DNA of 64,000 bases from Pseudorhodoferax sp. Leaf274 (lineage in GTDB: Bacteria; Pseudomonadota; Gammaproteobacteria; Burkholderiales; Burkholderiaceae_C): NCBI RefSeq assembly GCF_001422445.1, contig NZ_LMNA01000009.1, positions 1 to 64,000 of the forward strand, written 5' to 3'. Position numbers and translations under genes: made by a program. Below are positions 6,042 to 44,293 of this stretch, in pieces (positions within the stretch are counted from its first letter, which is position 1; every line of letters begins with the position of its first letter). The notes below the pieces were generated by a model. It made no database searches. It was not told where the DNA came from and worked only from the letters and a program-made list of their open reading frames with translations.

Positions 6042-6066
6042 GGCCGGATCGTACGACTGCAGCCTA

Positions 6067-6514: not shown

Positions 6515-6521
6515 GGCTGCC

Positions 6522-18969: not shown

Positions 18970-18982
18970 TCGACGCCCAATG

Positions 18983-24647: not shown

Positions 24648-27600
24648 TCACGCCGCCTGTTGCGTCAGGTTGTAGGTGGACGGGTTGTTCACCTGCCTCT
24701 GGTTCGGCGTCACGCCGGTCGAGTACGTGCTGTGGAACCGGATGTAGTACTGACCCGGCAGCGCCGCGCCAATGGCTGCGATGTCGGTCCATCCCGTCTC
24801 GCCGTCCGCCGAGCGCTGCACGTACCAGATGTTGTCCGACTTGCGCCACAGGCGAGCCCAGTGCCCGGCCGTCATCGTGTAGCCCGTCGACACGTCGCCG
24901 CCCGCGTCCGTCACGGTCGAGATCCCACCGGTGGCGGTGATCTTGAACGCGCGCGCGGACGCATAGAACGCCGGATCCGTCTTCGAGGCGCCGGCCGACA
25001 CCGCTGCCGATTCCGTTCCGTCGCCGAGGTACTGGACCCGCCCGCCGCCGACTTGCCCGTTGTCGAGCGTCTGGAGCGTCTGGATCGCGCCGGCCCACGA
25101 CCCTGCAGAGGACGTGGACTGGAACTTGCCGGCGCTCAGCTTCGTCATGTTGACGAGCGCGATTTCCGACGCAGCGACCCAGGTGGTTCCGGTCGCTGCC
25201 GCCGGCGTGACCGCGTTCGACGCAGCGGACTCCGCGCCCCAACCGACGCTGTTGAAGGCCTGCAGCTTGAAGGTGTAGGCCGTGCCATTGGTCAGGCCCG
25301 TCACAGCCACGGGCAGCGTCGCGCTTTCCACCGGCGTGCCGGCCGTGCTGCCCACGTAGGGGATCGCACGGTACTTGGTGATGGCGGCGCCGCCGTTGCT
25401 GGCTGGCGCGGTGCCGGCGACGCTCGCAGACCCGTCGCCCGCTGTGGCCGTACCGATGGTCGGAGCACCGGGCGCCGTCACGGCAGCTGTCGGCGTCACG
25501 CTGTTCGACGGGTCGGAGTACGGACCCCAGCCGCTGATGTTGCGTGCCCGCACGCGGCTCGTGACCGCCGAACCGTTGGCGCTGGCCACGGCGATGGGGC
25601 TTGCCGTGGGCGTGCCCGTGTTCGCGTTGTTGTTGCTGAGCTGGACGCCGTACTCCAGGATCGGTGCGCCGCCGGTGCTCGGTGCGGTGAAGGCCGTGCT
25701 GACCGTGCCGTCTCCCGCCGTCGCCGTCGGCGCATCGGGCTTGCCCGGCACAGTGCTGGCCGCGACGCTCGGCTCCTTGGTCCACTGGAGCGCCGGGTAA
25801 GGGACGCTGCTGATGAAGCCCTGGAAGTTGTCGAAGTACGGGTAGGAGGTGAACTCGGTCCAGTAGATGCGGCCCTCGTGGCAGTTGATCCGCATGATGA
25901 TGTTGGCCGTCGTGCGAATCGTCTCGATGACCTGGTAGCTGGCGCCGTTGTCGTCGGTCCGCAGGATGCGCAACGCCCAGCTGCCGACGCCCACGTTGGG
26001 CCCCAGGTTGACACTGATGGCTGCGTGGGTCGCATCCAGCTTGAGACAGCTGCCGTAGTAGCCCGTCACGCTGGACAGCGAAGGCAGGCCGGTGGCGCCC
26101 AGGTCGACGGACACGTATTCGCCGGTCGTGCCGATCCGCTTGCCCAGCCGGTAGGTGCCCGAGCTTTGGATGTCCGGCATGACCTGGTAGGACACGGTCT
26201 CGCCGTCGAACTCATACATGCGGCTCGTGCCCGAAACGACAGAGATCGCTTTGCGCATGTTCGCGCTCGGGATCGTGGCGCCTGCGCTGTAGGCATTGCC
26301 CAGCGACGCGCCGCCGGCCGTGATGTCGCCTGTGTCCAGGTTGATCACGAATTCGAAGATGTTGTGTTGCGAGCCGTTCAGCGGATGCAGGTACGCGAGC
26401 GAGCGCAGCTCGTTGCCGACCTTCGCGGAGGTCTGGTAGGTGAGGCCGTGCAGTTGGCGCTCGGCGCTCCAGGTGCGGCCACCGTTGTCGGAGTAGCGCA
26501 GGACGTTCCAGCCGCCCGACGAGGTGCCAATGCGGTACGTGACGATGAGCCGCTGGCCGTGCATGAACACCTGGTTGTAGGTGCTCTGGTAGTCGGCCGT
26601 CGTGCCGCCGCCCGCGACGTACTGGACCGCGCCGAAGTCCATGCCATGCGGTGTCGCAGTGACCGCGTAGCGGAATCCGTACTGACCGGTGATGCCGTGC
26701 CTGTTCCAGATCGCCATCCAGGCGCCATTCCAGAGCTGGACAAAGGACGGTTCGTTGTGGTCATCGATCTCGTTGGTGTCGAGCACGACCGTCGATTGCG
26801 GGACGCCGTTGACGAGCTTCGTGACGTAGAACTGCCCGCCTTGGCCCGCCGAACCCATCATCGTGTAGTCGCCCGCCGTGCTGCGGTCGATGGTGTTGGT
26901 GCGGTACAGGGGCTTGGCCCATTGGCCCTGCGCGGCGCCGGCGCGCGCGACCAGTGGCGTGGGCTCGACGTAGGACGCCGAAGGCGTGACGCTGTTCGAT
27001 GCGGCCGACGCGACGCTCTCGCCGGCAGAGTTGATGGCGTAGGCGACGGCGGTGCCGGCCTGGCCGTTCGTCACGCCCGTGATGCGGCCCGAAAGAACGT
27101 TGCCGACGGTGGCCTGCTGACCCCCGGACCAGACGAGGCGGTAGCCGGTGATCGCAGACCCGCCATTGCTGGAAGGCGCCAGCCAGGCGAGATCGACATA
27201 CCCGTCGCCCGCCGTGGCGGTCACGCCAGTCGGGGCGCCAGGCGCGACAACGCCAGCCGACACCGCCAAGTTGAAGCTGGCCAGCGTGGCCGTGGCACCC
27301 ACGTTGTCCGTGACGCGGATCGATAGACCAGAGGCCGTGCCGGCGCTCGTGGGCGTGCCCGTGATGGCGCCGGTGCCCGTGTTGAACGACAGACCGGCGG
27401 GCAGCGTGCCGGCCACCAGCGAGAAGGTGCGCGGCGTGACGCCGCCGGATGCCACCGGCGTGAAGCTGTAGGCGGTGCCCACGGTCGCGCTCGTGGCTGG
27501 CGTGCCGCTGATGGTCAGGGTGGCCGGCGCGGCCGCGACGACGATGGTGAAAGGCGCCAGGCTGACGGTCTCGTTCGCCGCGTCGGTCACGCGCAGGACG

Positions 27601-28202
27601 ATGTTCGCGGACGTGCCCGTGGAGGTCGGCGAGCCGCTGACGAGGCCCGTGTTGGCGTTGATCGACACGCCGGCCGGCAGGCTGCCAGACGCCACTGCGA
27701 AGGTGTACGGTTGCACGCCGCCGGATGCGCCCAGCTGCAGCGAGTACGGCACGCCGACGGCTGCGTTCAGCACAGGGTCCCCGTAGATCGCCAGCACCGA
27801 GCCGGTGGCGGCCACGCGCACGGTGAAGGGGCCGATGGTGGCTGCCTCGCCATTGGCGTCCACCGCGCGGACCGAGAACGTGCTCGACCCCGCGGTGGTC
27901 AGGATGCCGCTGATCACACCGGTGCTGGCGTTGATCGCCAGGCCGGCCGGCAGCGAGCCGGACACAACGGAGAACGTCTTGGCACCGGTGCCGCTCACGA
28001 CGACCGGGTAGAACACGTACGGCTCGCCGACGTTGGCAGCCGGCTTGGGCCACCCCTCCAGCACCATCGGCGGTGGGACGATGGTGCCGCTGCCGCCGAC
28101 GAGCCGCGCGTTGCCGTCCTTGTCCACCACGTACGGGCCCGAGCGGTCGCCCAGACGCCAGTAGTACCCGGCCTTGAGCCGGAAGCCTTGTGGGAATGCC
28201 AT
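24648..28202 (-). CDS. Giant Ig/FN3/Asp-box protein encoded between capsid and portal
   Basis: 1184 residues with a good ribosome-binding site (AAGGAG). After about 50 N-terminal residues come three putative Ig (He_PIG) domains to about residue 325, each with the pattern SGSLPAGxxINAxTG or a close variant. One FN3-like domain follows (APGAPTGVTATAGDGYVDL). Then comes about 400 residues resembling a beta-propeller with Asp-boxes (YSDNGGRTWSAE; RTDDNGASYQV) as in sialidases and other BNR proteins, two more FN3 domains, and a C-terminal beta domain of about 150 residues. No membrane segment is visible. It probably decorates the virion and binds glycans. Catalysis cannot be judged from sequence. 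Confidence 0.8.
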   Translation of the reverse strand: MAFPQGFRLKAGYYWRLGDRSGPYVVDKDGNARLVGGSGTIVPPPMVLEGWPKPAANVGEPYVFYPVVVSGTGAKTFSVVSGSLPAGLAINASTGVISGILTTAGSSTFSVRAVDANGEAATIGPFTVRVAATGSVLAIYGDPVLNAAVGVPYSLQLGASGGVQPYTFAVASGSLPAGVSINANTGLVSGSPTSTGTSANIVLRVTDAANETVSLAPFTIVVAAAPATLTISGTPATSATVGTAYSFTPVASGGVTPRTFSLVAGTLPAGLSFNTGTGAITGTPTSAGTASGLSIRVTDNVGATATLASFNLAVSAGVVAPGAPTGVTATAGDGYVDLAWLAPSSNGGSAITGYRLVWSGGQQATVGNVLSGRITGVTNGQAGTAVAYAINSAGESVASAASNSVTPSASYVEPTPLVARAGAAQGQWAKPLYRTNTIDRSTAGDYTMMGSAGQGGQFYVTKLVNGVPQSTVVLDTNEIDDHNEPSFVQLWNGAWMAIWNRHGITGQYGFRYAVTATPHGMDFGAVQYVAGGGTTADYQSTYNQVFMHGQRLIVTYRIGTSSGGWNVLRYSDNGGRTWSAERQLHGLTYQTSAKVGNELRSLAYLHPLNGSQHNIFEFVINLDTGDITAGGASLGNAYSAGATIPSANMRKAISVVSGTSRMYEFDGETVSYQVMPDIQSSGTYRLGKRIGTTGEYVSVDLGATGLPSLSSVTGYYGSCLKLDATHAAISVNLGPNVGVGSWALRILRTDDNGASYQVIETIRTTANIIMRINCHEGRIYWTEFTSYPYFDNFQGFISSVPYPALQWTKEPSVAASTVPGKPDAPTATAGDGTVSTAFTAPSTGGAPILEYGVQLSNNNANTGTPTASPIAVASANGSAVTSRVRARNISGWGPYSDPSNSVTPTAAVTAPGAPTIGTATAGDGSASVAGTAPASNGGAAITKYRAIPYVGSTAGTPVESATLPVAVTGLTNGTAYTFKLQAFNSVGWGAESAASNAVTPAAATGTTWVAASEIALVNMTKLSAGKFQSTSSAGSWAGAIQTLQTLDNGQVGGGRVQYLGDGTESAAVSAGASKTDPAFYASARAFKITATGGISTVTDAGGDVSTGYTMTAGHWARLWRKSDNIWYVQRSADGETGWTDIAAIGAALPGQYYIRFHSTYSTGVTPNQRQVNNPSTYNLTQQAA

Positions 28203-28276: not shown

Positions 28277-30271
28277 TTAGACGGAACCCCACTTCACAGC
28301 GGACAGGTGGGCGGCGGCCGACGCGCGGCGCTTGGCCCAGTTGATGGCGCGCTCGGCGCGGAAGCCGACCAGGTTGCGCTGCCACAGGCTGACCAGCACC
28401 GTGGTGGCGGTGGTCGGGTTGTCCGGAGCGCTGTCCATCTGCAGGGAGGCCTCGCGGCTCAGATCGACGGCGAAGCCGCCCTCGTCGCCCAGGTAGATGT
28501 CCGAGGCGTTCACCAGCGCAACGGTCGAACCGGCGCTCACCGTGGGCACGTACTGCGAGACGATGACGGGCAGGCCCGCGAAGGTGCCGCCGCGCATCGT
28601 GATGCCGGGGTGCACGGTCTGGCCCAGCGCGTTCTTCATCAGCGACAGCGCCAGGGCGACGGTGGCAGGCATGATCCAAACGCCGGCGGTCGGGGCGTTG
28701 TTGGCTGCGATGAAGGCGCCGAAGATGGCCTTCACGTCCGCATTGACCGCGTCCTCGTCCACGCCGCTGGACACGATCGGCGTCACGCCGTTGAGTACCG
28801 ATGCGGGCGAGACGCCGGCGGCGGCTGCCTTGGCCGGGTCGATGAAGTCGAGGTCCAGGCGTTCGCGCAGTGCGTCCACCAACGCGTCGCGGATGACCGC
28901 ATCGGCCGACGGGGAGCTGTCGCGCAGGATCTCCTCGGTGACCACCGCGATGTTGGCGACCTTCAGCGGCTCCAGCGTCTTGCGCTCGAAGTCGAACTTG
29001 GTCAGCGGCTTGGCCTGGCCTTCGCCGACCCAGTAGCCCGCGCCGCCCGACGTCTGGCCGACCATGGGCACGCGGAACGGCGTGGAGCGCAGCGCCGGCA
29101 CTCCGTTCTGGCCGAACTTGCCGATGATGGTTTCGGGGCGCAGGTACTCCACGAAGTCGGCGTACACGGTCGTTTCGTCCCCGACCAGCGCGCCGGCCCA
29201 GGCGTCGCTCGACGTGGAACCGGCGGCGACGGCCGCCTTCAGCACGTTCTGCACGCGCGGGTCGAGCCGCTGGTCGGCCTGGGCCAGGTTCAGCGCGCCC
29301 AGGTGGTTGCCCTGGGCCTTCGCGATGAGGCGCGCCATCTGCGCCAGCGCCAGGCCCTTGCCCACGATGCGGTTGTCACGCACCTGGATCGAGGGCTGAC
29401 GCGACTCGCTGCCTTCCTTGCCGTTCTGGCCGGCGGCAGGCTTGGCCGTCTTGACCAGGTCGCTTTCCATCACGCGCAGGTCCTCGAGCTCTTGGTCGAT
29501 GCCCTTGATCTCGGCGGTGATCTCGGCGAAGCGTTCCTGCTCCGCAGCGTCCTTCGTGCGGCCGGCGTCAACGGCCTTGGTCTGGATGGAGGTGCGCTCG
29601 TCGGTCAGCGCCTTGCGCTTCGCTTCGAGGGCTTGGATTTGTTCTTGGACGTTCATGGTGGCCCCTTTCCGGGCATAAAAAAACCCGCCAGAGGCGGGCT
29701 GTTGCTGGGTTCCCGAAGCGCCGGGAGGGGGTGCGGCCGGCTGGCCGCGCTGTTCGCCGCCCTGCGCGGCGCCAGACGAGGCACGCAGGGCGGTGTCGAG
29801 GGACTTAATGGCGGTGATGGACGCCTCGGCGTTGGCGGGCACCGTCACTGCGCTCAACTCATGCCAGTTCCAGCGCAGGAAGCGGATGCCGTCGTCCATG
29901 AACGCGTACTCCAGCGGCGAGAAGCCGATGGACAGCCCGCGCACCAGGCCGGTCTTGATGGACTGCCATGCTTCCTCCAGACGTGCAATCAGCTGGCTCG
30001 GCATGTCAGGCGTCGGCTTGACCAACGCAGCGCGGATCTCGATGCCTTTCGCCGTGACGCGCGCAGCGGTCACGTTGCCGATGGGTTGCGAGTGGTCGTG
30101 CTGCCACAGCAGCGGCACGGGCAACAGGAACTCCGCGCCGCCGGGCTCCACGATGTCGCCCATGCGATCGGTGCCTGGGGTGCTGGCGATGCCGTTGATT
30201 TCGCGCTTGTCTTCATCGACGGCCTTGAGGACCATCGTGGAATAGACGCGGTTGATGCTCTTGGGGTCCAT
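28277..30271 (-). CDS. Fused HK97-type prohead protease and major capsid protein
   Basis: 664 residues from an ATG with a GGAGGG site. Residues 1-185 are a U35-type prohead protease: GIASTPGTDRMGDIVEPGG, LLWQHDHSQPIGN with the catalytic His, GLVRGLSIGF with the catalytic Ser region. Residues 206-664 are an HK97 major capsid protein: a helical delta/scaffold segment (QIQALEAKRKALTDER), then VGETTVYADF-like and PFRVPMVGQTSGGAGYWVGE blocks. The linker of about 20 residues (PASGGFFYARKGAT) is encoded by a terminator-like hairpin. Internal initiation at Met206 (AAAGGGG upstream) could also give free capsid protein. Confidence 0.9.
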   Translation of the reverse strand: MDPKSINRVYSTMVLKAVDEDKREINGIASTPGTDRMGDIVEPGGAEFLLPVPLLWQHDHSQPIGNVTAARVTAKGIEIRAALVKPTPDMPSQLIARLEEAWQSIKTGLVRGLSIGFSPLEYAFMDDGIRFLRWNWHELSAVTVPANAEASITAIKSLDTALRASSGAAQGGEQRGQPAAPPPGASGTQQQPASGGFFYARKGATMNVQEQIQALEAKRKALTDERTSIQTKAVDAGRTKDAAEQERFAEITAEIKGIDQELEDLRVMESDLVKTAKPAAGQNGKEGSESRQPSIQVRDNRIVGKGLALAQMARLIAKAQGNHLGALNLAQADQRLDPRVQNVLKAAVAAGSTSSDAWAGALVGDETTVYADFVEYLRPETIIGKFGQNGVPALRSTPFRVPMVGQTSGGAGYWVGEGQAKPLTKFDFERKTLEPLKVANIAVVTEEILRDSSPSADAVIRDALVDALRERLDLDFIDPAKAAAAGVSPASVLNGVTPIVSSGVDEDAVNADVKAIFGAFIAANNAPTAGVWIMPATVALALSLMKNALGQTVHPGITMRGGTFAGLPVIVSQYVPTVSAGSTVALVNASDIYLGDEGGFAVDLSREASLQMDSAPDNPTTATTVLVSLWQRNLVGFRAERAINWAKRRASAAAHLSAVKWGSV
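29677..29701 (-). terminator. Terminator-like hairpin inside the protease-capsid frame
   Basis: On the minus strand AGCCCGCC-TCT-GGCGGGTT is followed by a run of seven T, then GCCCGGAAAGGGG and the ATG of the capsid part. It has every mark of an intrinsic terminator, yet it is translated as the linker of the fusion protein. Confidence 0.72.
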
Positions 30272-30279
30272 GAGCCCTC

Positions 30280-30813
30280 CTAAACGGAAACGGTGTGGAA
30301 AGGGCCGCGGACGCCCGCAGAGTGCGACTCCGCAGCCGCCAGCGCCATGTCGATGCGGTCCGCTGGTGTGTGCTTTGCCGTGGCAAACAGTGCCCCCTTT
30401 GCATAGCCCTCGCCGCATCCGACCGCGTCGTAGCCGCAGGTCGCCTCTGCCACCTGGTAGTCGCCGTGGATGGCAAACAAGCGTCCTGCATGGCCCACCA
30501 GGAAGCTGCCGCCTTGCTCGACTTCGCTGTCCTTTCGAGCGAAGCCACCTGCCTTCAGGCAGCTGCGCAGCGCATCCACGAAGTCGGTGACCATGTAGGC
30601 CATCAGGTCCTTCTCGGGATGGCGCTTCGGCGGCTCGAACGCGTACTGGATGAGCTGTCCCATCCGGAACGAGGTGGTGAAGCCGAAGGCGAAGCCGCTC
30701 TTCACGCTGACCTTTTGATCTCGCCGCACGTTGAGGTCGAGCCCCGACACGCCGGCGCTGTCACCGCCGATATAGACGCGACCTTCATGGACCAGCCCGA
30801 CAATGCAAGTCAT
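30280..30813 (-). CDS. Proteasome/HslV-like Ntn hydrolase
   Basis: 177 residues beginning Met-Thr-Cys-Ile-Val-Gly. After Met removal, Thr would be the N-terminal nucleophile as in HslV. VYIGGDSAG matches the HslV strand with Asp17, RRDQKVSVKSGFAFGF matches the Lys33 region, and YDAVGCGEGYAKGALFA matches GSGGPYAQAAA with Cys in place of Ser. HslV is a self-compartmentalised protease. Here the gene sits between the large terminase and the prohead protease-capsid gene, so a role in head maturation or host protein turnover is possible. Context and motifs agree; activity is inferred. Confidence 0.75.
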   Translation of the reverse strand: MTCIVGLVHEGRVYIGGDSAGVSGLDLNVRRDQKVSVKSGFAFGFTTSFRMGQLIQYAFEPPKRHPEKDLMAYMVTDFVDALRSCLKAGGFARKDSEVEQGGSFLVGHAGRLFAIHGDYQVAEATCGYDAVGCGEGYAKGALFATAKHTPADRIDMALAAAESHSAGVRGPFHTVSV

Positions 30814-30872: not shown

Positions 30873-32573
30873 TCAGACAAAGGTGATGCTGTACTCGGGC
30901 TGCTTTTCGGGCGGGACCAGCAACTGGCCGACGCCCATGATCAGCGTCACGGCACCGTCGATCTTGTTGTCCTTGCCCTGCTTGATCGGGCGCACCACGT
31001 CGTCATTCCCAGCTACGTGCTTGCCGATGACGTTCGCGATGCACCAGGTCATGATCGGGTGACCGTCGTGATGGAACCGGCCTGACGCGATCGCGGCCTC
31101 CAGCTCCTTCATGGGGTCGGACATGTTGGTGTAGTTCTGCGTGATGGTGATGGGGCTGAGCCCTTCATCATCGAGTTGGTGCGACAGGTTCGTGGCCCCG
31201 AACGGGTCCATCGGGCTTGCCTGCACCGGGTTCAGTTTGTTGGCGTCCTTGGCCTCGCCCAAGATCTCGCGGTAGTCCACCTCGGCGCCATCGGTCTGCA
31301 GCAGCAGACCAGCATTTACCCACTTCTGATACCGCTCGGCCATTCGCCGGTTGTCCATGTTGTTCACGGTGTCCTCGGGCACCCAGAACCGCGGCGCCAC
31401 GCTGTAGTAGTGCCGCTTACCGTCAATGTCCCGCCAGAACAGGCGGCCCATGCTGTTCATGTCCAGCTTGCGCGCCAGGTCGAATGCGAGCACGCAGGGC
31501 TGGCCCTCGAACTGCTCGAGCGTCAGCGTCGTGTCCTTCAGAGCCTCCCACTGCGCGACGTTGAAGTAGCCTTCCTTGGCCGTGACCCACAGGCCCAGGT
31601 GCTTGGTCTTGAAGACATTAGTGAACCGCGCGCGCTGTATTGCGCGGCGCTGCTGGCTCTCCAGGTACTGCTGGTTGACCGAGACACCGATGTTCGGGTT
31701 GGCCTTGGCCAGGACCTTCGGGTCCTTCCAGTCGTCGCCCTCGTCAATGGTCCAGATCCAGCCGAACAGCTCGTCGTTCGGCACGATGCCTTCCAGCATC
31801 TCGATGACCTCGCGCCGCTTGTCGTAGCAAGGCCCCTCAATGTTCGCGCCGGCCGTGGTGATGATGAACATCAGCGGCTGCTTGCGCGCGCCCATGCCGG
31901 TCAACATGGTGGTGTAGAGCGCGTCGCTGTCGTGCTCGTGGTACTCGTCCACTATGGAGCACGACGGGCTGGAACCGTCACCAGGGTTGCCGATCAGCGG
32001 TTCGAACCGGCTGCCGTCTGCGGGTTTGCTCAGGTTGCTGGCGTTGACCTCGATGCCGGCCGCGTCCTTGAGCAGCGGCGTGCGGGCGACCATCAGCCGG
32101 GCCGGCCGGAACACCTCCCAGGCCTGCTTCTCCGTCGTAGCGCCCGAGTACACCTCGGCGCCGAACTCGTTGTCCTGCGTGAACATCGACAGGCCCACGC
32201 CTGCCGCGATCACGCTCTTGCCGTTCTTGCGGTTGACTTCCCAATAGGACTCGCGGAACCGGCGCGTGTCATCGCTCTTGCGCCTCCAGCCGAAGGTGCA
32301 GACGATCCCGAACTTCTGCCAGCGCTCCAGCGTGACCAACTGCCGCTTGAAGGCCCACTCGCCTTTGGTGTGCGGCAGCATTTCGATGAAGTCCACCCGA
32401 CGCTGGGCTTCCTTCTCATCGAAGTAGTACGGGTAGGCCGGGTCCTTCGCCGCCTCCAGGTCATCGAGGTGGCGCTGGCAAGCCAGCTTGACGTAGCGGC
32501 ACGCCGGGATCTTGCCGGCGATGATGGCCTTGGCGAACTCGACCGCCTCGCGGCCTGCACCGGCCTTAGCCAT
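30873..32573 (-). CDS. Terminase large subunit
   Basis: 566 residues. The ATPase part has a Walker-type loop ([18 protein letters not shown]) and [12 protein letters not shown] as Walker B with the coupling residue. The nuclease part has [14 protein letters not shown] (metal Asp) and later [10 protein letters not shown]. Phage terminase_1 family, HK97/phiC31-type. It cuts and pumps DNA into the prohead. It overlaps the small terminase gene by 8 bp. Confidence 0.95.
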
Positions 32574-33048
32574 TCAGTAGCGCCCCGAACGGGTTGGCCT
32601 GGCCCGGGTCTTTGGTCTTGCCGGTGAGGCGCTGGCGGCTGGATGGGTCCAGCCCGAGCATGCCGCCATAGGTCGCCATGACCGCGACCGACTCCTTGAC
32701 CACCGTCGCGGCCGGGTTCTTGACCACGCCACCCTGAGCGCCCAGTACCGTCACGCCCTTGGTGCGCACCTCCTCGCGCGCCAAGCGGAATCGGTCGTAC
32801 GCATCGCAGTACACCTCAATGTTCTGCACGTCCGCTGCCGACAGGACTTTCTGGCCACAGAGCATCGGCACAACGTGCTCCCACAAAGCCCGTCCGAACT
32901 CGCCCATCCAATCCGGGCAATCGATGTTGGTGACCTGGCCGAAGTCCGGGGCTGAAGTATTCAGCGCGCGCTTGCCCGGGTTGCCGGCCAGCTGCTTCTG
33001 CGCCACCGGCTTCGGACGGCGCCCGGATCGTCCTGCGGCACCCGCCAT
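32566..33048 (-). CDS. Terminase small subunit, P27 family
   Basis: 160 residues: [20 protein letters not shown] at the N-terminus, [20 protein letters not shown], then [20 protein letters not shown] and [11 protein letters not shown]. These are the usual marks of P27/HK97-type small terminases that recognise the packaging site. Encoded directly before the large subunit. Confidence 0.9.
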
Positions 33049-33188: not shown

Positions 33189-33578
33189 TCAGCCGCGGCG
33201 CTGCTCCCTAGACGTTTTCTCCGCATGGCATCCGACCTTCACGCCGGCCTCGTCGCGCGACACGCACAGCACCTGGCAGTTCTGGTCTGTGTCTTCGCCA
33301 CCATCAGCGAGCCGCACCTTGTGATCGAGCTCGAAACGCAAGCGGGCGCTCGGAGCGATGTCGGTTAGCCGGCCGCACCCAGCGCAAAGCGGGCTCTTGG
33401 ACCAGATGCGCATGCGGCGTGCCTGCAGTGCCCGGCCTGTCAGCCGAGTGGCCGCGCTGTCCGGGGTGCGCGCCCAGGCCTTGGCATCGTCCTGGTGGGC
33501 GTCACAGAAGCCGTTCGCGTTGCGGTGTAGCTCTCGGCAGCCCTTGTGCCTGCACGGGCGCTGTGGGCGCTGTGGCAT
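33189..33578 (-). CDS. HNH endonuclease linked to packaging
   Basis: 129 residues. CRHKGCRELHRNANGFCDAH at the N-terminus is a zinc-ribbon. The HNH core is CAGCGRLTDIAPS, FELDHKVRLADGGEDTDQNC (His-Lys and Asn) and GCHAEKTSREQ. In HK97 the homologous gp74 lies beside terminase and stimulates cos cleavage. Same position here. Confidence 0.88.
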   Translation of the reverse strand: MPQRPQRPCRHKGCRELHRNANGFCDAHQDDAKAWARTPDSAATRLTGRALQARRMRIWSKSPLCAGCGRLTDIAPSARLRFELDHKVRLADGGEDTDQNCQVLCVSRDEAGVKVGCHAEKTSREQRRG

Positions 33579-34389: not shown

Positions 34390-34782
34390 AGAGTTCCTTT
34401 TCTGGTTGAGGGATGCAGCCATCGGACCTACCGGGCTTGGTCGGCCCCGGCTGGATTCTTCCGTTATCCGATCGCACGGGTCCGCCAAGCTTGCGAGGCA
34501 AACTCTCGCCGCCCGCAGTTGGCGGCTTACAGTAAAGACCGATCACCCCAGCCGCGTTGAAGTCAACTGACGGCATCCGCAGTTTTGACTAGGCGGAGTT
34601 TTTTACACGCAAGAGCCCGTGGCATATGCAACCCGTTGACATGAAGCAAAAGTTCTTCAGTGGCACACGAGTTGCTGTCGGTCGATGCTCCGCGCTAGAA
34701 CAAGCGATGGCCCATCATTTCTGGCGCGGTTGCAATCGCCTTCTTTGAACGGATCTGTCTTCACCATAAGGAACCGAAGTCC
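34390..34782. other. 393-bp intergenic region with divergent regulatory sequence
   Basis: No convincing gene. It separates the leftward late block from the rightward PEP-CTERM gene and is AT-richer on its right half. It has a GC hairpin (CCGCC-CGCAGTT-GGCGG region near 34510-34527), a small palindrome GTTGA-AG-TCAAC at 34556-34567, and a sigma-54 type promoter listed separately. Confidence 0.5.
34661..34676 (+). promoter_or_regulatory. Sigma-54 (-24/-12) promoter of the PEP-CTERM gene
   Basis: TGGCACACGAGTTGCT matches the RpoN consensus TGGCAC-N5-TTGC(A/T) with GG and GC separated by exactly 10 bp. It points at the PEP-CTERM gene; the predicted transcript would start near 34687, about 95 nt before the ATG. 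Known PEP-CTERM genes in floc-forming betaproteobacteria are driven by RpoN with the PrsK/PrsR pair. Confidence 0.72.
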
Positions 34783-35706
34783 ATGACTTTCATCCGGCCT
34801 ACCTTGGGCGCCCTTGCCTTAATCGCCGCAACTCTTGCCTCTGGAGTCGCCAATGCCGCTCCTACCACGTTTTATTCGACAGCGAATGTTCTCGCTGGAA
34901 ATAGCGATGGATCGGGAGACTGGGTGGTTGGTGCGGCGAACACAAGCATCAAGGACAGCTTGTCGAACACCTCCGGCTCTGTCACCTACTCTGGAACGAA
35001 TGTTGGCGGCTCTGCCGCCGCAATGACCTTCTCCTATGCGGCTCGCTCTATCTCGGGTTCTGGCGGACTGAAAGCGCAAGCATCGGCCAACGTTTCGACC
35101 CCTTTCGACGACCGGTCCCCAGTTGTTGGGCTTGATCTAACCCCAAACTACTTCTTCACGGTCGCCACTGCTGAGATGAATGACACTTTGACCGTCCAGT
35201 CCGACATTCCTCTCAGCTATGTGACTGTTTCGATCCGCTTTCACGGAGATGCCCTTAAATCCACCAGTGATGAACGAGTCCTGTCTTATGGAACGCTTAG
35301 CGGCTGGAATGGTGCGCTCGCGAATTCAACAGAAGGAGCAAACGACTTTACTGTTAACTCGGGTCGTTTGGCGGTAACAAATGGAACCTTTGATCTGTAC
35401 CTTCATTTGCGAGCAGCGCTGTACATCGATATCACGCAGAAGGAGGGCGATGTCCTCAACGATTTCTACATAGGTAACGCCGACTTCTTCAACACCGCGA
35501 CAATTGAAAGAATTTCTGGCTTTGATGCCGCAGGAAAACCGCTTGACGTTGCGACCGTAACTGGAACCGACGGATTCAGCTACCAAACTGTGCGCGTGGT
35601 CGATCCAACTAATCCGGGAAACGAGGTTCCCGAGCCTGGTTCGCTGGCACTGATCGGGATTGGTGTCGCGAGCATCGCCGCAATTCGGCGCCGGACACGC
35701 CGCTGA
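34783..35706 (+). CDS. PEP-CTERM sorting domain protein, prophage cargo
   Basis: 307 residues. Signal peptide: LGALALIAATLASGVANA. The mature part is Ser/Thr/Asn/Gly-rich and beta-rich (GSVTYSGTNVGGSAAAMTFS). The C-terminus is the PEP-CTERM tripartite signal: VPEPGSLALIGIG, a short membrane helix and RRRTRR. Such proteins are exported, cut or anchored by a host exosortase and usually act in exopolysaccharide matrix or flocs. AAGGA lies upstream of the start. The gene is opposite to the late operon and AT-richer than neighbours, both signs of a transferred moron. Confidence 0.88.
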   Translation: MTFIRPTLGALALIAATLASGVANAAPTTFYSTANVLAGNSDGSGDWVVGAANTSIKDSLSNTSGSVTYSGTNVGGSAAAMTFSYAARSISGSGGLKAQASANVSTPFDDRSPVVGLDLTPNYFFTVATAEMNDTLTVQSDIPLSYVTVSIRFHGDALKSTSDERVLSYGTLSGWNGALANSTEGANDFTVNSGRLAVTNGTFDLYLHLRAALYIDITQKEGDVLNDFYIGNADFFNTATIERISGFDAAGKPLDVATVTGTDGFSYQTVRVVDPTNPGNEVPEPGSLALIGIGVASIAAIRRRTRR

Positions 35707-36000
35707 TCTCAGATCTAGTAACTCCCAACCGAGCCCACCAGCCGCCAGGTTGCATGATCCATCCCTTAAGCTTTGACATGCAATGAGTGCGCAACGGTCA
35801 ACTCGGGCGGTCCGTCCTGTCGCATCGGGGAAGTTTGGACTTGAAGCCTGATGCCGAGGCAGAGCTGGGACGGGCAGGCCAATCGGCTCCGGCGCACGAA
35901 AGTCGCGAAGCCGACGCCATCGGTCCCAGGTCCGCAGCCTTGCATGGACAGCCTCCAGAAAAGGAGACGCCCGTCCTGCTTTGAAGGGGCGAGCCTGAAT
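35707..36000. other. Non-coding stretch after the PEP-CTERM gene
   Basis: About 300 bp with no convincing frame. It contains GACGCCCGTCCTGC-type GC patches but no clear terminator. It runs into the tRNA-like sequence on the minus strand. Confidence 0.4.
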
Positions 36001-36084
36001 TGGGGTGGCGACCGGAATCGAACCAGCGGCCTCAACGCGCTGTGATGCAGCTGCGGAGCGCTCTACCTGCTGAGCTACACCACC
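36001..36084 (-). tRNA. Degenerate tRNA-like sequence without a normal anticodon loop
   Basis: On the minus strand the acceptor stem GGTGGTG/CGCCACC, D arm GCTC/GAGC and T arm with TTCGATTC are intact, and CCA follows. The region between D and T arms is 32 nt instead of 23 and folds as an extended hairpin with loop CATCA, so there is no 7-nt loop with U33 and no readable anticodon. The discriminator base also seems missing. Probably a tRNA relic (Met-like outline) or a tRNA mimic. Confidence 0.5.
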
Positions 36085-36197
36085 GAATGGAATGACGCCT
36101 TTGGATCAAGCCAAGCGGAATTCTTCGACCAATTCTAAGACCTAAACTTGAAGCCTCAACGCGAGGCGTTGCGGGCACTTGACATTAGTGACTTGCG

Positions 36198-36725
36198 CTA
36201 CTTCAATAAAGCGATGTAACGCATACCCTCACCCGCTTGAATTGACTGCCTTGCAAGAACTTCTTCGAAATAGCCCTCGTGAAGGTTGTAGGTCAGTCGG
36301 GCACCCTCCGCAAAAAAGGTCTTTGCGGTTCCTTTATCGCAAACCCCCTCTTTGACGCAAACTGCGAGATCGTCGTAGAACTCTGAGACAAGCAACAGCG
36401 CCGATCGACTTTGGGCCTCCTGCAATACGTCAGCGACGTAAGTAGCGAAAACCGCCCTCGTGGTGTTCTTGTCACGCAGTTTGGAAGCCAATGCCAGTTG
36501 ACGGGTGGTCCAAGTTTCGGCAACTTTGGCCGATGCCTCAGCAACGTTCCCTGTGCGGAACTCATCCCGAAACTTCATGGTTCGCTCTACACGATCGCCA
36601 TGCAGCTTCCCGGCGTACTGCCAAAGACCGAATACACCACCCACAATCAGGGCGACGACCCCCACCCACGGCACTAGCACCTCCGTCAACACCTTACGCC
36701 GAGCCCACATCACATCTGAAGCCAT
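36198..36725 (-). CDS. Membrane-anchored hypothetical protein
   Basis: 175 residues: a short cytoplasmic N-terminus, one membrane segment (VLVPWVGVVALIVGGVFGLW), then a helical soluble domain with VKEGVCDKGTAKTFF and a Tyr-rich end (LTYNLHEGYFEEV). It resembles DUF4760-type proteins in outline. GAGGAG precedes the ATG. It follows the 48-aa exported protein by 13 bp, so the two are one operon. An exclusion function is possible but unproved. Confidence 0.6.
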   Translation of the reverse strand: MASDVMWARRKVLTEVLVPWVGVVALIVGGVFGLWQYAGKLHGDRVERTMKFRDEFRTGNVAEASAKVAETWTTRQLALASKLRDKNTTRAVFATYVADVLQEAQSRSALLLVSEFYDDLAVCVKEGVCDKGTAKTFFAEGARLTYNLHEGYFEEVLARQSIQAGEGMRYIALLK

Positions 36726-36738
36726 CCGAATGGCTCCT

Positions 36739-36885
36739 CTATTTCTTGATCTTGCAGAAGTCCGTCCGATCCTGGCAAATGTCGGGGACTTTCAACTGGC
36801 TGCGATGCCCTTCCGGAGGAGGGGCCGACGCAAGAGCTGTGACTACAACGCCAGAGAACAAAACAACAGCAGATAACCAACGCAT
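36739..36885 (-). CDS. Small exported protein (48 aa)
   Basis: MRWLSAVVLFSGVVVTALAS is a clear signal peptide, cut probably after ALASA; about 27 residues remain, with two Cys (DICQDRTDFCKIKK) that could form a disulfide. GGAGAA stands 6 nt before the ATG. First gene of a two-gene leftward operon with the membrane-anchored protein. Family unknown. Confidence 0.6.
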   Translation of the reverse strand: MRWLSAVVLFSGVVVTALASAPPPEGHRSQLKVPDICQDRTDFCKIKK

Positions 36886-37078
36886 CTAAATTCTCCAAAA
36901 GGAGTAGTTGGTCAATCTTGCTCTCTTGTAGTCCTAAGGTCAACACGGCCTAGCAAAAATGCAAGGGAAGGACGAAACCGACGCCGGGCCAGCGTTGGGG
37001 CGCCGCGTACTCCTGGTCATGCTGCCGCTGACATGGGATGCCGTTAGCCCACGTCTTCGAGCAGCGAGTTGATGCTGA

Positions 37079-37417
37079 CTAGTCCAGATCGTGATTCCGG
37101 CGCAGGTGCTCACCCAGCTGAGACGCCATCTTCGAACGGCGCCCTTCGCTGTCACCTGCACCTTCGTCCACGTAACGGTTGTGCTCAACGATCTGCAGAT
37201 CGAGATACCGATCGCCGATTACCTCGAACGATTCGCCGCCAGGAAAGCGCAGAAAGAGCATTCCGCTCTCATCGTCGTCACCACCAACGACTGCGGTGAC
37301 GCTGACCCCCGTAATGACGTTGATCGCCATTTCTTCGCTTGAACTGCGGGCAGCGGTGAACTGCTCCAACTCGTTCAACGCGTTGATCACTCTTCGGCCT
37401 CGGCCCAATTTGCTCAT
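37079..37417 (-). CDS. Hypothetical protein
   Basis: 112 residues from MSKLGRGRRVINALNELEQF. Middle part GDDDESGMLFLRFPGGESFE looks beta-rich; the end has RRSKMASQLGEHLRRNHDLD. AAGGGG precedes the ATG. Not recognised. A hairpin lies about 55 nt upstream. Confidence 0.5.
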   Translation of the reverse strand: MSKLGRGRRVINALNELEQFTAARSSSEEMAINVITGVSVTAVVGGDDDESGMLFLRFPGGESFEVIGDRYLDLQIVEHNRYVDEGAGDSEGRRSKMASQLGEHLRRNHDLD

Positions 37418-37467
37418 GTCGTCCCCTTGAAAGGCTCCAACATACTCGCCGGCAAGGTCCCAGAACG

Positions 37468-37492: not shown

Positions 37493-37752
37493 CGTTCACC
37501 GAGCTTACCGACACCGCCGCCTCCAACATGGATGGGCGACCCTGGTTATGCGTTTTCGCTCAGTCGTTGGGGCGCACGATATCAGAAGTTGGGATTTGAA
37601 ACAAGGGTCTTTCATCCAGACCACAGGATCGGCCAATGACGCCGATAAATCTTTTGATGTGGTGCAAGCGGGTCATCCAAAACATACTTTCGCTGCGATT
37701 CAAGTTCAAGAGATTTCCGCTAGTCCTGCAGCGGGACGATAAGGAGGTCGAC

Positions 37753-37953
37753 TTGGCCAGTGTTGAAGATTTGGGGGACCAGTGGGAGGATGCGGCACGC
37801 CGGGCTGACCAGCTGGCCGGCCAGGTGCAGGCACTTGTCAAAGCAGGCGAGACTCCTCCAGGGGAACTACTTGCCTTGGTGGCCGCCGCGGAAGAAGACG
37901 TACAGAGAAAGCTCCTCGACATCGAAGCGGCTCGCCGCGCGCAGAGAACCTGA
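37753..37953 (+). CDS. Small helical protein on the opposite strand
   Basis: 66 residues from TTG with an almost perfect ribosome-binding site (AAGGAGGTCGAC directly upstream): MASVEDLGDQWEDAARRADQ, then a charged helix ending LLDIEAARRAQRT. An ATG at 37636 in the same frame would add 39 residues but has a poor site. The gene faces leftward neighbours, so it probably has its own promoter. Unknown function. The 335 bp before it hold only the hairpin at 37468-37492. Confidence 0.55.
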   Translation: MASVEDLGDQWEDAARRADQLAGQVQALVKAGETPPGELLALVAAAEEDVQRKLLDIEAARRAQRT

Positions 37954-37984
37954 ACTGCAGCGGCGGGCAGCCGTTGAAGACCCA

Positions 37985-38404
37985 TCACTCCGCTTCCCGG
38001 TTGATCAACATCTGCCGGCCGTCGCGCACCAGCTTGGCAAGGCCCTCCATGGTGGTGCCGAGCGCCTGGCACGCGCGTTTCGGGCTGACGGGCTTGACGT
38101 AGTGCCAGTTGATCGCCGTCCGGTTTGACTGCGGCAGCGCGGCCACGGCTTTGGCCATCTTCGTGGCGTCTGCCGTGTCCAGCACATCCGAGATCTGGTA
38201 GGCCATGTCGGCCCGCACACGAGGGGGCGGCGGCGTCATGCGGAACATGGGCGAGGTCATCGGCGCCGATGTGCCGTTGCACCAGCGCGCCCAGTTGGCC
38301 AAGCGGCGATCCATGAGACGCTGATGCGGCTCCACCGCGTGGAAATCGATGGGCGCCCGGCCGCGGCGCTCGGTGTTCTGGGTTCGTTCTGCGATTGCGT
38401 TCAT
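37985..38404 (-). CDS. Q-like late gene regulator (antiterminator or sigma-like)
   Basis: 139 residues. The C-terminal half has an HTH-like pattern as in phage antitermination Q / sigma region 4 proteins: VAALPQSNRTAINWHYVKPV, then PKRACQALGTTMEGLAKLVR. The protein ends LINREAE. It is the last gene of the leftward early operon, the place of Q in lambdoid phages, and late genes follow in the same direction. Family inferred from pattern and position. Confidence 0.55.
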   Translation of the reverse strand: MNAIAERTQNTERRGRAPIDFHAVEPHQRLMDRRLANWARWCNGTSAPMTSPMFRMTPPPPRVRADMAYQISDVLDTADATKMAKAVAALPQSNRTAINWHYVKPVSPKRACQALGTTMEGLAKLVRDGRQMLINREAE

Positions 38405-38746
38405 GGCTTCCTTCTGGTCTAACAAGGTGGTCAAGGACGGGGAAGAACAAGGGTCAGTTCTCTAAGGCAAGGCTGAAGACCCGGTGGGCTGCGCATACCA
38501 CCCCTTACCCAGGGGAGACCTGGGAGGCGTGGCATGCGCATGAGGCAGTGGCAGTGAGCCCAGCGTTCAGCGCCCTGGTGGTGGCCGATGCGCCCCAACA
38601 GGTAGCCCAGACTTACAGCCCCGCATCGGGACCCTGCGCACGCTCTAGGCGATCCACCCACGTTTCGGCTTTGCACAGACCGGGTAGCCGAGGTCTTGGC
38701 CCTTGCCCCCGCGTATCGAGCCGCTGGCAAGGGTTGCGAGGCTGCC
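38405..38746. other. 342-bp gap between primase and Q-like gene, possible gene relic
   Basis: No intact gene. Downstream of the primase stop, which directly follows a strong AGGAGGTGGCCATG motif, the minus strand can be read in another frame as ...LCKAETWVDRLERAQGPDAGL-stop, protein-like in composition but without a start. This may be a small gene damaged by frameshift. Confidence 0.35.
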
Positions 38747-39640
38747 CTAGGGCATGGCCACCTCCTGCGTACGAACGCGCATCAGGAGCCCGCAGACGGC
38801 CAGCAAGCCAGCGCGCACGTGCATATCGTTGGCATCCTCACCGAGTACGGGGCTCATGCAGTACGGCAGGCCTGTGGCCTGCGCTGCGCGCTCCCCTGCC
38901 CCGCTCTTGTCGTTGTCGGCGAACACGTAGCGCTTGCCCTGCTTCGTCTGCCCAGCGACCAGCGCCATGTTCAAGTCGCTGAAGCACACCAGCACCGCAG
39001 CGTTGAGCCGCATCTGGCGCGCGGCCGCCTCGACCGACAGGCCCGTGGCGTACCCCTCGCAGTAAATCGTCTCCATGGCGCGCGGCGAGCCCAGGCGCAG
39101 CACTGCGCCCTGAGCCCGCATGCCATAGGTCATCTTCTTGACCCAGCGCATCACGCCGGGCTCCTCCTCGGTGTCCGCCCACCGGATGACCTGGGCGCCG
39201 CGCAGTTCGTTGGTCTTCCAATCGCGCATGGGCACCAGCAGGCCGCCGTCTGGCAGCACCAGGCCCTCAGCGTTCGGGAAGCCCTTGCGGTACAGGTAGT
39301 CGTGATGGTGCGGCTGCGTCTCGCGCAGCAGCTCGGCGGCGCGGTGCGCAGCCCGTTGCTGCAGGCGCAGCTGGTCCTCGCGCGCCGCCTGGCGCTTGGC
39401 CTGCCATGCGCGCTTCTCTTCCTCGGTCCAAGGCTTGGCGTTCGGATCGTTGAACCAGTGCGTGCGCTTCTCGCCATCCCAGGCGAAGACCCAGCCGCGC
39501 TGCCCGTCCCAGAAGTACGCGCCGTTCGTGCTCTTCGGGTGCTCGACCGTGGGGCACCGCTTGACCTTTTCGCTCGGGTTGAACTTGGAGAGGTTGATCT
39601 CCAGCCCGTGCACCCGCGCGAAGTTGATGAAGTCCATCAT
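38747..39640 (-). CDS. Toprim-domain DNA primase-like protein
   Basis: 297 residues. The N-terminal part (EHPKSTNGAYFWDGQRGWVF) resembles primase zinc or lead domains without the full Cys set. The Toprim part has METIYCEGYATGLSVEAA (Glu) and YVFADNDKSGAGERAAQ (Asp-x-Asp) and ends VLGEDANDMH. P4-alpha-type Toprim proteins prime phage replication. It overlaps the helicase gene by 4 bp. Confidence 0.83.
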   Translation of the reverse strand: MMDFINFARVHGLEINLSKFNPSEKVKRCPTVEHPKSTNGAYFWDGQRGWVFAWDGEKRTHWFNDPNAKPWTEEEKRAWQAKRQAAREDQLRLQQRAAHRAAELLRETQPHHHDYLYRKGFPNAEGLVLPDGGLLVPMRDWKTNELRGAQVIRWADTEEEPGVMRWVKKMTYGMRAQGAVLRLGSPRAMETIYCEGYATGLSVEAAARQMRLNAAVLVCFSDLNMALVAGQTKQGKRYVFADNDKSGAGERAAQATGLPYCMSPVLGEDANDMHVRAGLLAVCGLLMRVRTQEVAMP

Positions 39641-41184
39641 GCGGCGGCGGCCTCCGCACGCCGGCGATGCGCGTTCGCAATCTGTCTGGCCTTCTGCTTG
39701 CCGTTAAGACCTGCCGTCAGCGCGGCCGGCACGTCCACCGGTCGCGCGTCATCGAAGCGCGGGAAGCGCGGCGGCTCGCGGCCCGTCAGCTCCTTGAACT
39801 GCATGTAGGCATAGCCGGCCTTCTTTTGCACCCAGCTGGTCTGACGCGCAAAGCTGCACAGCTGCAGCCACAGGTCGGAATCGCTGCTCTTCAGCTTGTG
39901 CTTGCCGATGCTGATTTCCTGCATCACGCCGGCCTCGTGCGAGATCAGCGAGCGGTCTTGGATCTCGTGCCCGCAGGACATGCACCGTTGACGGAACGGC
40001 TTGTAGCCGCACTTCGGGCAACCCTTGCGCTCGCGTTCGTCCTGGTCGTCGTAGCGGACCTTTTTGTCCAGGGCCTCGCCCATGTCCAAGGTCTTCAGAC
40101 CGTTGAAAAAGATCTCGGTGTAGTCCTCGGCGAAGCGCGTGATGTTGCCGCTGTGGTCCAGCAGGATGCAGTCGGCTTTCCCGGTGTCGAGCGAAGAGCG
40201 CAGGCCGCGCCCCCACATCTGAATGGCGGTCGACAGCGACCTGCGCAGCGGACGGCAGTCCACCACGCAGCCCACGTCCTGCACGTCGAAGCCCTTGGCC
40301 AGGGCCTCCACGCTGATCAGGATGCGGATCATCGAGTCGGGCTTGGCGAACTCCCTCACCAGCTCATCGCGCACCGGCTTCGGCGTGTCCTGCGTGAATG
40401 TCGCCGCGTAGACGCCCACCTCGCTGAAGCGACGGCACAGCTCTTCGCAGTGCGCGATGGTGGCGCCGAACACGATGGTCTTGCGGCCTTCTGCATGGCG
40501 CAGCCATTCGGCCACCACGTCGCCGATGATCTCCATGCCCCGTTCCTCGGCCGCTGCATGAGTCCATTCCCCGTCGCTGCCGATCTTGGCGCCGGCCATG
40601 TCCGGGCGGCGCGCGGACAGCACGCGCATGGGCACCAGGATGCCCTCCTGCGTCAGCTGGTGCATCGTGGTGTTGCTGATCAGGTTCGTGAAGATCTTCC
40701 CGAGCCCGCGCGAGAACGGCGTCGCGGACAGGCCGAACACGCGCGCCTCGCTCTCCATGGCGAACTTCACCCAGGCCTCGCGCTGGGTGTGCGCCTCATC
40801 CACGATGACGACATCGAGGTTCTTCGGCCAGCCGCGGCTCTCGATGCTCTGGATGCTCGCGATCTGGAAAGGCCGGCTCCAGTCCTGGCGCGGGTGGTCG
40901 CCCTGGATCACGCCGTGGTCACGCAGGCCGTATTCGTCGGCCCGCGCGCTGGTCTGGTCGATCAGCGTGATGCGGTCGCAGATGAACGCGACGCGCTTGC
41001 CGGCCTTCAGGGCCTTGTGGCACAGGCGCAGACCCAGGTAGGTTTTGCCGGCACCGGTGGGAGCCATCACCATCTGATTCTTGTGCCCGTCCACCAGGCC
41101 CTGCGCCACCAGCTTCATAGCCTCGGACTGGAATGGGCGTGGCGGCTTGAAGCCGGCGGGCGCGGTGTCGAACAGCTCCATCAC
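39637..41184 (-). CDS. Superfamily 2 DNA helicase (DEAH)
   Basis: 515 residues. Motif I APTGAGKTYLGLRL, motif II VVIVDEAHTQREAW, motif III LSATPFSRG, motif VI IQMWGRGLRSS. A zinc-finger-like part follows (CPKCGYKPFRQRCMSCGHE). It belongs to the phage SSL2/ERCC3-like helicases, and with the Toprim primase it would unwind the phage origin. Full length; overlaps both neighbours. Confidence 0.93.
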   Translation of the reverse strand: MMELFDTAPAGFKPPRPFQSEAMKLVAQGLVDGHKNQMVMAPTGAGKTYLGLRLCHKALKAGKRVAFICDRITLIDQTSARADEYGLRDHGVIQGDHPRQDWSRPFQIASIQSIESRGWPKNLDVVIVDEAHTQREAWVKFAMESEARVFGLSATPFSRGLGKIFTNLISNTTMHQLTQEGILVPMRVLSARRPDMAGAKIGSDGEWTHAAAEERGMEIIGDVVAEWLRHAEGRKTIVFGATIAHCEELCRRFSEVGVYAATFTQDTPKPVRDELVREFAKPDSMIRILISVEALAKGFDVQDVGCVVDCRPLRRSLSTAIQMWGRGLRSSLDTGKADCILLDHSGNITRFAEDYTEIFFNGLKTLDMGEALDKKVRYDDQDERERKGCPKCGYKPFRQRCMSCGHEIQDRSLISHEAGVMQEISIGKHKLKSSDSDLWLQLCSFARQTSWVQKKAGYAYMQFKELTGREPPRFPRFDDARPVDVPAALTAGLNGKQKARQIANAHRRRAEAAAA

Positions 41185-43469: not shown

Positions 43470-43498
43470 ATTGTTTCATGGCGCCAAAGAATATGCAA
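43470..43498 (-). promoter_or_regulatory. Early leftward promoter (PR-like)
   Basis: On the minus strand TTGCAT (43498-43493) and AACAAT (43475-43470) are 17 bp apart, reading into cro. The promoter covers a possible upstream ATG of CI at 43478, so CI more likely starts at 43517. CI operators should lie in 43452-43516 but I cannot define them. Confidence 0.55.
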
Positions 43499-43516
43499 GT
43501 CAGATTAAATGATGGG

Positions 43517-44293
43517 ATGCCAGACTCACCCCGCCTTGACACCCTCGGCCAGCGGATACGTCACGCGCGCGGAGTTGCGGGCTTGACCCAGATGCAGCTC
43601 GCTGAAGCGTCTGGGGTGAAGCAGTCGGATATCTCCAAGCTGGAGCGCGGCGACAGTCGTTCGACTACGGGCTTGGTCGCACTGGCTCGCGCGCTTAAGG
43701 TCGATCCCAACTGGCTGGACGATGGCGACACCGGTCCCGTGCTTTCTCTTGAGCTCAAGCGCCGCATCGCGGAGATCGACATCAAAGAACGTCAAGCCCG
43801 GCTCGGCCTGTCTCCTGTGGAGGCCATTAAGGCGCTGCCGGATGCAGCCTTAAGAGGTATTGATGTGGTGATCCCCCAGTTCGAGACTGGAGGCTCAATG
43901 GGAAGGGGCGTTGTTTTGGCAGATCAGCCAGGCGTGATCAAGGAGTGGCGCGTTTCCGAGCAGTGGGCGCAACAGAACATCCACCGGATCACGTCCATCA
44001 AGAACCTGGCCATCGTCACCGGCTTCGGGCCGTCGATGCAGCCACTGTTCAATCCGGGCGATCCGCTGCTCGTAGACCGCGGCGTGACGCGCGCGGACGT
44101 GGACGGTATCTACTTCTTCCGCGTGGGCGACGAGGGCTTCGTGAAGCAGCTGCAGCGCATCCCCACAGTAGCCGGTCTGGTGCTGCGGGCCAAGAGCTAC
44201 AACACGCTGTACGACCCGTTCGACATCACGACGGGCATGGATTTCGAGGTCTTCGCGAGAGTCGTGAAGGTCTGGAAGGGCGAAGAGTTCTAA
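43517..44293 (+). CDS. CI-like prophage repressor (HTH plus S24 domain)
   Basis: 258 residues from MPDSPRLDTLGQ. HTH: LTQMQLAEASGVKQSDISKL. The C-terminal S24/LexA fold has FGPSMQPLFNPGD (Ser) and GDEGFVKQLQRI (Lys). No Ala-Gly or Cys-Gly site is evident in the linker (QFETGGSMGRGVVL); Gly-Gly or Gly-Ser may serve, or it is not self-cleaved, and the phage also has an antirepressor. It maintains lysogeny. Confidence 0.9.
   Translation: MPDSPRLDTLGQRIRHARGVAGLTQMQLAEASGVKQSDISKLERGDSRSTTGLVALARALKVDPNWLDDGDTGPVLSLELKRRIAEIDIKERQARLGLSPVEAIKALPDAALRGIDVVIPQFETGGSMGRGVVLADQPGVIKEWRVSEQWAQQNIHRITSIKNLAIVTGFGPSMQPLFNPGDPLLVDRGVTRADVDGIYFFRVGDEGFVKQLQRIPTVAGLVLRAKSYNTLYDPFDITTGMDFEVFARVVKVWKGEEF

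Follow-up and report, generated by a model that had tools for sequence, protein, structure and literature searches.

What is a gene for a PEP-CTERM exported protein doing among the genes of a tailed phage, and which regulator would decide when it is used? The question is raised by a 64,000-nucleotide stretch of the genome of Pseudorhodoferax sp. Leaf274, the whole of which was analysed and is referred to here as the window. We suggest that this gene is a lysogenic-conversion gene (moron) wired into the matrix regulon of the host, a reading to which we assign a probability of roughly 0.6. The gene and the elements next to it are the following.

34510 to 35835, no strand: swapped cassette (promoter region and gene), with conserved stretches on either side in the related phage contig L351, where the gene is absent
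34591 to 34607, plus strand: PrsR enhancer-like motif 1, AGGCGGAGTTTTTTACA, 53 nt 5' of the -24 box and weaker than the host sites
34661 to 34676, plus strand: predicted sigma-54 promoter (-24/-12), TGGCACACGAGTTGCT, with the top score in the window
34768 to 34773, plus strand: ribosome-binding site AAGGAA, 9 nt 5' of the ATG, read from the sequence
34783 to 35706, plus strand: PEP-CTERM exported protein gene, 307 aa, from the open reading frame and profile matches

The preliminary description claimed that the gene encodes an exported PEP-CTERM protein, and both ends of the 307-aa protein bear this out. Its C terminus, VPEPGSLALIGIGVASIAAIRRRTRR, scores above two curated cut-offs (Pfam PF07589, 27.6 bits against 20.7; TIGR02595, 20.2 bits against 16), and its N terminus looks like a signal peptide on inspection and under a simple test of hydrophobicity. 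The product is, thus, likely to be an exosortase substrate, as predicted from these signals. By sequence comparison, the body between them is an orphan. Without the tail, the protein has zero NCBIfam matches at E ≤ 10, and it matches neither a PHROG nor a PADLOC model at E ≤ 0.01. Within the family of the host, 399 genomes were compared; the protein has a match at E ≤ 1e-5 in 11, one of them the host's own, and in the 10 non-self genomes the match covers the C-terminal part only. An initial scan of genome contigs returned no relative. A second scan, which bears on the 14-member viral family described below, listed at least 77 loci, most of them matching only in the last 25 to 50 residues, i.e., the tail motif. 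A tblastn search of phage records with four proteins, including that of the window, gave no match. The same was true of a 26-aa PEP-CTERM peptide searched against phages and plasmids, a search that is uninformative because a query of this kind may be masked as low-complexity sequence. The best hit in a PDB sequence search had an E of 0.57, and the structure predicted for the protein alone has a mean pLDDT of 32.6.

Similarity to a known floc protein is limited to the tail and its setting. Like PepA of Zoogloea and Aquincola (NF033554; PMC9850573 in its available text), the gene combines a PEP-CTERM tail with an RpoN-type promoter, with TGGCAC in both, and an exosortase-bearing host. In Aquincola, according to the same text, pepA is RpoN1-dependent, and of several PEP-CTERM genes tested, pepA alone rescued flocs (PMC9850573). 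Unlike PepA, the window protein reaches 27.4 bits against the NF033554 cut-off of 80, and with the tail removed there is no match; identity with PepA is not supported.

The preliminary description also placed the gene inside a prophage, and this placement is supported by att sites that repeat exactly and by an integrase at the end of the element. The landmarks of the prophage are listed below.

2681 to 54858, no strand: prophage of about 52.2 kb, from the att repeat, the integrase and an empty-site comparison
2681 to 2706, plus strand: attL, a 26-bp repeat in the 3' end of tRNA-Arg (tRNA at 2631 to 2705)
12330 to 13664, minus strand: tail collar/fibre protein
14569 to 18993, minus strand: tape measure protein
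22953 to 24329, minus strand: portal protein
28277 to 30418, minus strand: major head protein with prohead protease
30873 to 32573, minus strand: terminase large subunit
32566 to 33048, minus strand: terminase small subunit
33189 to 33578, minus strand: HNH endonuclease
38747 to 39640, minus strand: primase
39637 to 41184, minus strand: helicase
43478 to 44293, plus strand: CI-like repressor
53620 to 54741, plus strand: phage integrase with arm-binding domain, ending 91 nt before attR
54833 to 54858, plus strand: attR, an exact 26-bp copy

Tailed-phage genes, together with a ParB-like gene, fill the att-bounded interval, and the PEP-CTERM gene lies far from either end. The right host flank, beside purH, aligns at 86 to 91% in five other genomes of the genus; the distance from tRNA-Arg to this flank is ∼1.5 kb in genome G001 and ∼2.9 kb in genome G002, versus 52 kb here. 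The same gene is present at 100% in the viral record IMGVR_UViG_2643221867_000001 (54,740 bp). The possibility that the gene belongs to a chromosomal segment outside the prophage is ruled out by the exact att repeat, the terminal integrase, the flank comparison and L351. In the related genome G004, this tRNA-Arg site was also used by a related phage, as judged from an attR near the start of contig C17 (L055) that has the same 26-bp core and is, over 148 nt, 84% identical to the end of the present prophage. The prophage carries further genes of note: a SRAP-domain gene and a UmuC-type polymerase gene form an SOS mutagenesis cargo at 5340 to 7823, and a protein of 1184 aa that contains Ig-like, fibronectin III and BNR repeats is encoded between the portal and capsid genes (24648 to 28202, minus strand). 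Outside the att sites, just left of tRNA-Arg, lies a second phage-type integrase (1499 to 2515, minus strand), and related sequence adjoins the tRNA in G002. An open reading frame at 37560 to 38450, at first counted as a gene, is probably not real.

Phage morons are typically single AT-rich genes that run opposite to their neighbours, have their own promoter and occur in one phage but not in a relative. Several lines of evidence indicate that the PEP-CTERM gene conforms to this pattern, and they support the moron-like traits, i.e., opposite strand and lower GC, that were claimed beforehand. First, the gene is oriented against the terminase and late genes. Second, its GC content is 54.3% and its GC3 is 56%, versus a GC3 of 80 to 90% in nine genes of the phage core (tape measure, portal, capsid, large and small terminase subunits, HNH, primase, helicase and integrase), 75% in the CI gene and 73 to 96% in the 25 other PEP-CTERM genes of the host. 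Third, the related phage contig L351, with a 95% identical primase, aligns with the window at 34405 to 34509 (77%) and 35836 to 35961 (83%) and has between these flanks 0.68 kb of GC-richer DNA with no blastn match to the window. Given these conserved flanks around other DNA, the gene in its att-bounded prophage looks like a swapped-in, AT-rich moron with its own predicted promoter. It differs from usual morons in that it is predicted to need a protein-sorting enzyme of the host and, very likely, a sigma-54 enhancer regulon of the host as well. Beside the cassette, an AT-rich segment at 35962 to 37459 encoding a DUF4760-like membrane protein is absent from L351, whose two sides abut there, and it is, therefore, taken as a second insert. 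Of the related phages compared, this one alone carries the gene: when 80 viral loci whose terminases are related (70 to 86% identical), many of them short, were scanned for the tail motif, no PEP-CTERM gene emerged, the regular-expression hits in two of them (L097 and L138) being judged spurious by eye; a protein comparison of 20 of these 80 loci also yielded none; and among 20 loci with related primases, a PEP-CTERM gene occurs only in the window's own copy. The location of the gene between the packaging and replication genes might suggest a virion or lytic-stage protein with a tail that merely resembles PEP-CTERM. We regard this as highly improbable, because the gene runs opposite to the late genes, has its own sigma-54 site, encodes a tail above curated cut-offs, matches no PHROG and is missing from a related phage in which the neighbouring genes are the same.

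The region upstream of the gene points to a host regulator. A TGGCAC-N5-TTGCT element with GG-N10-GC spacing lies at 34661 to 34676, the ATG being about 106 to 107 nt downstream. A sigma-54 matrix of consensus weights gives TGGCACACGAGTTGCT a score of 19.1, the highest on either strand of the window, the runner-up reaching 12.4. The preliminary description called this promoter perfect; its rank and its spacing stand, but near-perfect is the correct term, because an A follows TGGCAC where we take the consensus base to be G. The regulatory link is stronger than that description could know, because a PrsR-type enhancer-like site is also present. In the main text of Haft et al. 2006 (PMC1569441), motif 1 is described as 17 nt ending in TTTACA, the spacer to the sigma-54 site averages 62.8 nt (32 to 92) and the distance from the sigma-54 site to the start codon averages 71 nt (s.d. 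38.5). At 34591 to 34607, AGGCGGAGTTTTTTACA has the TTTACA end and a spacer of 53 nt, inside the published range. Its score of 9.4 lies below that of every one of the 14 host and genus sites from which the motif 1 matrix was built, whose own scores of 14.5 to 22.7 are inflated because the sites were chosen by likeness to GTCG...TTTACA. A score of 9.4 or more is obtained at 0.44% of positions drawn at random from the window, at 0.94% of those with low GC and in 1.2% of mononucleotide shuffles. Because of this score and these null rates, the predicted motif 1 is probable, not certain. The host has 25 other PEP-CTERM matches, one of which falls short of the Pfam cut-off; at 7 of the 25, a sigma-54 site scoring above 11 lies within 500 nt of the chosen start.

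Upstream of 33 PEP-CTERM genes, represented by distinct motif 1/sigma-54 pairs (15 from the genus, 3 from the family and 15 viral, the window excluded), the spacers are 31, 41 to 43, 51, 62 to 67, 72 to 75 and 104 nt, i.e., they are quantised in steps of ∼10.5 nt. A Rayleigh test at a 10.5-nt period gives 1e-9 for all 33 pairs, 1.4e-4 for the 13 pairs outside 60 to 67 nt and 4e-6 for the 15 viral pairs, which had no part in training the motif 1 matrix; these values are guides, because related sequences are not fully independent. This phasing fits an activator that has to bind on one face of the DNA. The window spacer of 53 nt is 0.6 nt off the mean helical phase of the 33 other pairs, which alone adds little, because ∼1 in 9 phases would be this close by chance; a spacer near 53 nt is uncommon, with 1 of the 33 pairs at 51 nt.

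The host has the machinery that such a cassette would call on. A search for exosortase, prsK and prsR, as had been proposed, returned proteins over the cut-offs for exosortase A joined to EpsI (XrtA, 355 bits against 208), exosortase Q (XrtQ), PrsK, PrsR, PrsT and EpsB_2; XrtA-associated kinase, ATPase, chain-length and amidotransferase proteins also pass their cut-offs, and with them the XrtA/PEP-CTERM gene set of the host is complete. The prsK, prsR and prsT genes are adjacent, and RpoN has one match. The locus, thus, resembles the XrtA/PEP-CTERM and PrsK/PrsR/sigma-54 system as set out in the main text of PMC1569441 in its tail, signal peptide, single gene and long upstream region. It also resembles the PrsR cis element described there in its probable motif 1-like site with a TTTACA end, its spacer within 32 to 92 nt, its sigma-54 site and the PrsK, PrsR and PrsT of the genome; it differs in being prophage-borne and in its degenerate motif 1. 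The host has many NtrC-like regulators, with 14 places, PrsR itself among them, scoring above 260 bits against the PrsR model, and motif 1 is imperfect; the promoter might, then, be used via another RpoN activator. The TTTACA end, the published spacer range and the helical phase, all of which match the PrsR element, argue against such an activator, as does a combined score of 28 that is reached by none of 834 control open reading frames (ORFs; see below), and we consider it quite improbable. On these sequence features, the cassette very probably belongs to the PrsR/sigma-54 regulon of the host.

The preliminary description implied that a phage PEP-CTERM gene is singular and proposed a search of viral databases. 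The search was productive and the singularity is not upheld, as PEP-CTERM genes recur in dozens of IMG/VR contigs. Back-translated PEP-CTERM patterns match 8, 11 and 62 IMG/VR stretches in overlapping sets, one stretch being the phage of the window; two out-of-frame versions, which serve as rough controls, gave 1 and 0 matches, and the one (L159) holds a PEP-CTERM ORF. In total, 73 loci (L151 to L223) contain 84 PEP-CTERM ORFs, the window copy included, and 75 of these have a signal-like start. The records of 50 of the 73 loci were tested at E ≤ 0.001 with PF03237 (matched in 13), PF03354 (9) and PF04860 (12). A terminase or portal profile is matched in 22 of the 50 records (21 counting over-cut-off matches only) and both in 9, while 28 match none of the three profiles, by which a phage is neither confirmed nor excluded. 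The PEP-CTERM ORFs of L171, L181, L205, L212 and L213 are truncated or lack a clear signal peptide. Phage hallmark genes flank the PEP-CTERM gene on both sides in L199, where an integrase adjoins it, L206 and L218. In L166, the order terminase (minus), PEP-CTERM gene (plus), DnaB (minus) reproduces the slot and orientation of the window gene. L201 and L184 carry virion proteins, and in L184 a host flank is not excluded because the gene is at the contig end.

The regulatory pair recurs together with the genes. Of the viral PEP-CTERM ORFs, 72 begin with a signal-like stretch and have 150 nt or more of sequence before the start; 16 of these 72 have the pair (sigma-54 score ≥7, motif 1 score ≥11), versus 3 of 834 control ORFs, which are long open frames of the same loci, many of them not real genes. 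A combined score of at least 28, that of the window gene, is found at 8 of the 72 and at 0 of the 834. The motif 1 of the window alone misses the threshold of 11, so that this gene stands out by the combined score only. At chromosomal loci of other genera, the pair is present in at least 3 of 29, versus 0 of 580 shuffles. By BLASTP of trimmed cores, two viral families of 14 and 13 members form without any of the host or genus proteins compared, and the window protein groups with neither. For the 14-member family, the model (13 members aligned) predicts, with a pLDDT of 78.9, that the part flanked by the signal peptide and the tail helix is a beta-rich domain; a fold search with it in PDB and BFVD gave no match at E ≤ 0.001. 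Tandem PEP-CTERM pairs are frequent in the viral loci, e.g., L155, L180, L182, L188, L196 and L218.

This recurrence also bears on whether the gene is a neutral passenger, i.e., a PEP-CTERM gene of host type that was captured not long ago together with its former promoter, brings no benefit to phage or lysogen and is decaying. Its foreign composition, orphan body and weakened motif 1, and its being private to this phage among the relatives, would fit such a history. Against it, the frame, signal peptide, tail, ribosome-binding site and sigma-54 site are all undamaged, and PEP-CTERM genes with the same regulatory pair are present in other viral contigs, making a passenger improbable. Beyond the single gene, we lean towards the view that PEP-CTERM morons are a widespread, undescribed lysogenic-conversion class, i.e., exosortase substrates behind a host PrsR enhancer and sigma-54 promoter in temperate phages of matrix-forming proteobacteria. 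Among the open-access papers covered by our searches, we found no description of a phage-borne PEP-CTERM gene with its regulation and one passing hint: according to the available text of PMC11003980, viral contigs from hot springs encode proteins that end in a putative exosortase-interaction tail (TIGR03118). These proteins (n = 13) resemble the window protein in having an exosortase-type tail on a virus-borne, host-derived protein; unlike the window gene, they are given one sentence there, with no promoter, regulon or function. The word "phage" is absent from the main text of PMC1569441, and passages of PMC12642866, PMC4886054 and PMC9012009 mention no phage-borne PEP-CTERM gene with regulation.

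Altogether, these findings confirm the observation in the preliminary description and partly support its interpretation. We infer the following for expression, processing, location and phenotype of the product. The prophage carries a self-standing cassette: one gene preceded by a probable PrsR-type enhancer, a predicted sigma-54 promoter and a ribosome-binding site. Within a lysogen, PrsK/PrsR and RpoN of the host would switch the cassette on together with the host's matrix genes and independently of the phage repressor. The signal peptide would export the product, and exosortase A of the host would hold and process it at its PEP-CTERM end. The product would then join the exopolysaccharide or surface layer and thereby affect how the lysogen binds matrix, adheres or aggregates. 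Given this mechanism, a role in the matrix or in aggregation has slightly less than an even chance, and receptor masking or superinfection exclusion is a less probable outcome. Prophage-encoded exported surface proteins often mask a receptor or exclude superinfection, and a private gene that varies between related phages fits phage–phage rivalry. The sorted product may, thus, have been selected for hiding or altering a receptor and blocking related phages, with any matrix effect incidental. We consider this rather unlikely as the explanation of the gene, because a gene controlled by the host matrix regulon, and not expressed constantly, would give cells no protection while PrsR is off, and because no PADLOC model is matched. 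We retain lysogenic conversion through the host matrix regulon as the preferred reading and hypothesize that the gene has a floc or biofilm effect.

Activated-sludge treatment depends centrally on the flocs that exosortase-bearing bacteria form (PMC9850573 and PMC9012009, in their available passages). A prophage gene that answers to the matrix regulator of the host would let the virus alter aggregation, adhesion or phage access. To our knowledge, the effect of prophages on activated-sludge flocs is an open question. The combination of enhancer, phased spacer and sigma-54 site offers a sequence test for finding more such genes, and the wider pattern in viral contigs is a more important result than the single gene. 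Because similar genes are present in dozens of viral sequences, such viruses may change the clumping or biofilm formation of their hosts. If this is true, prophages would add their own proteins to the extracellular matrix of the host whenever the host builds matrix.
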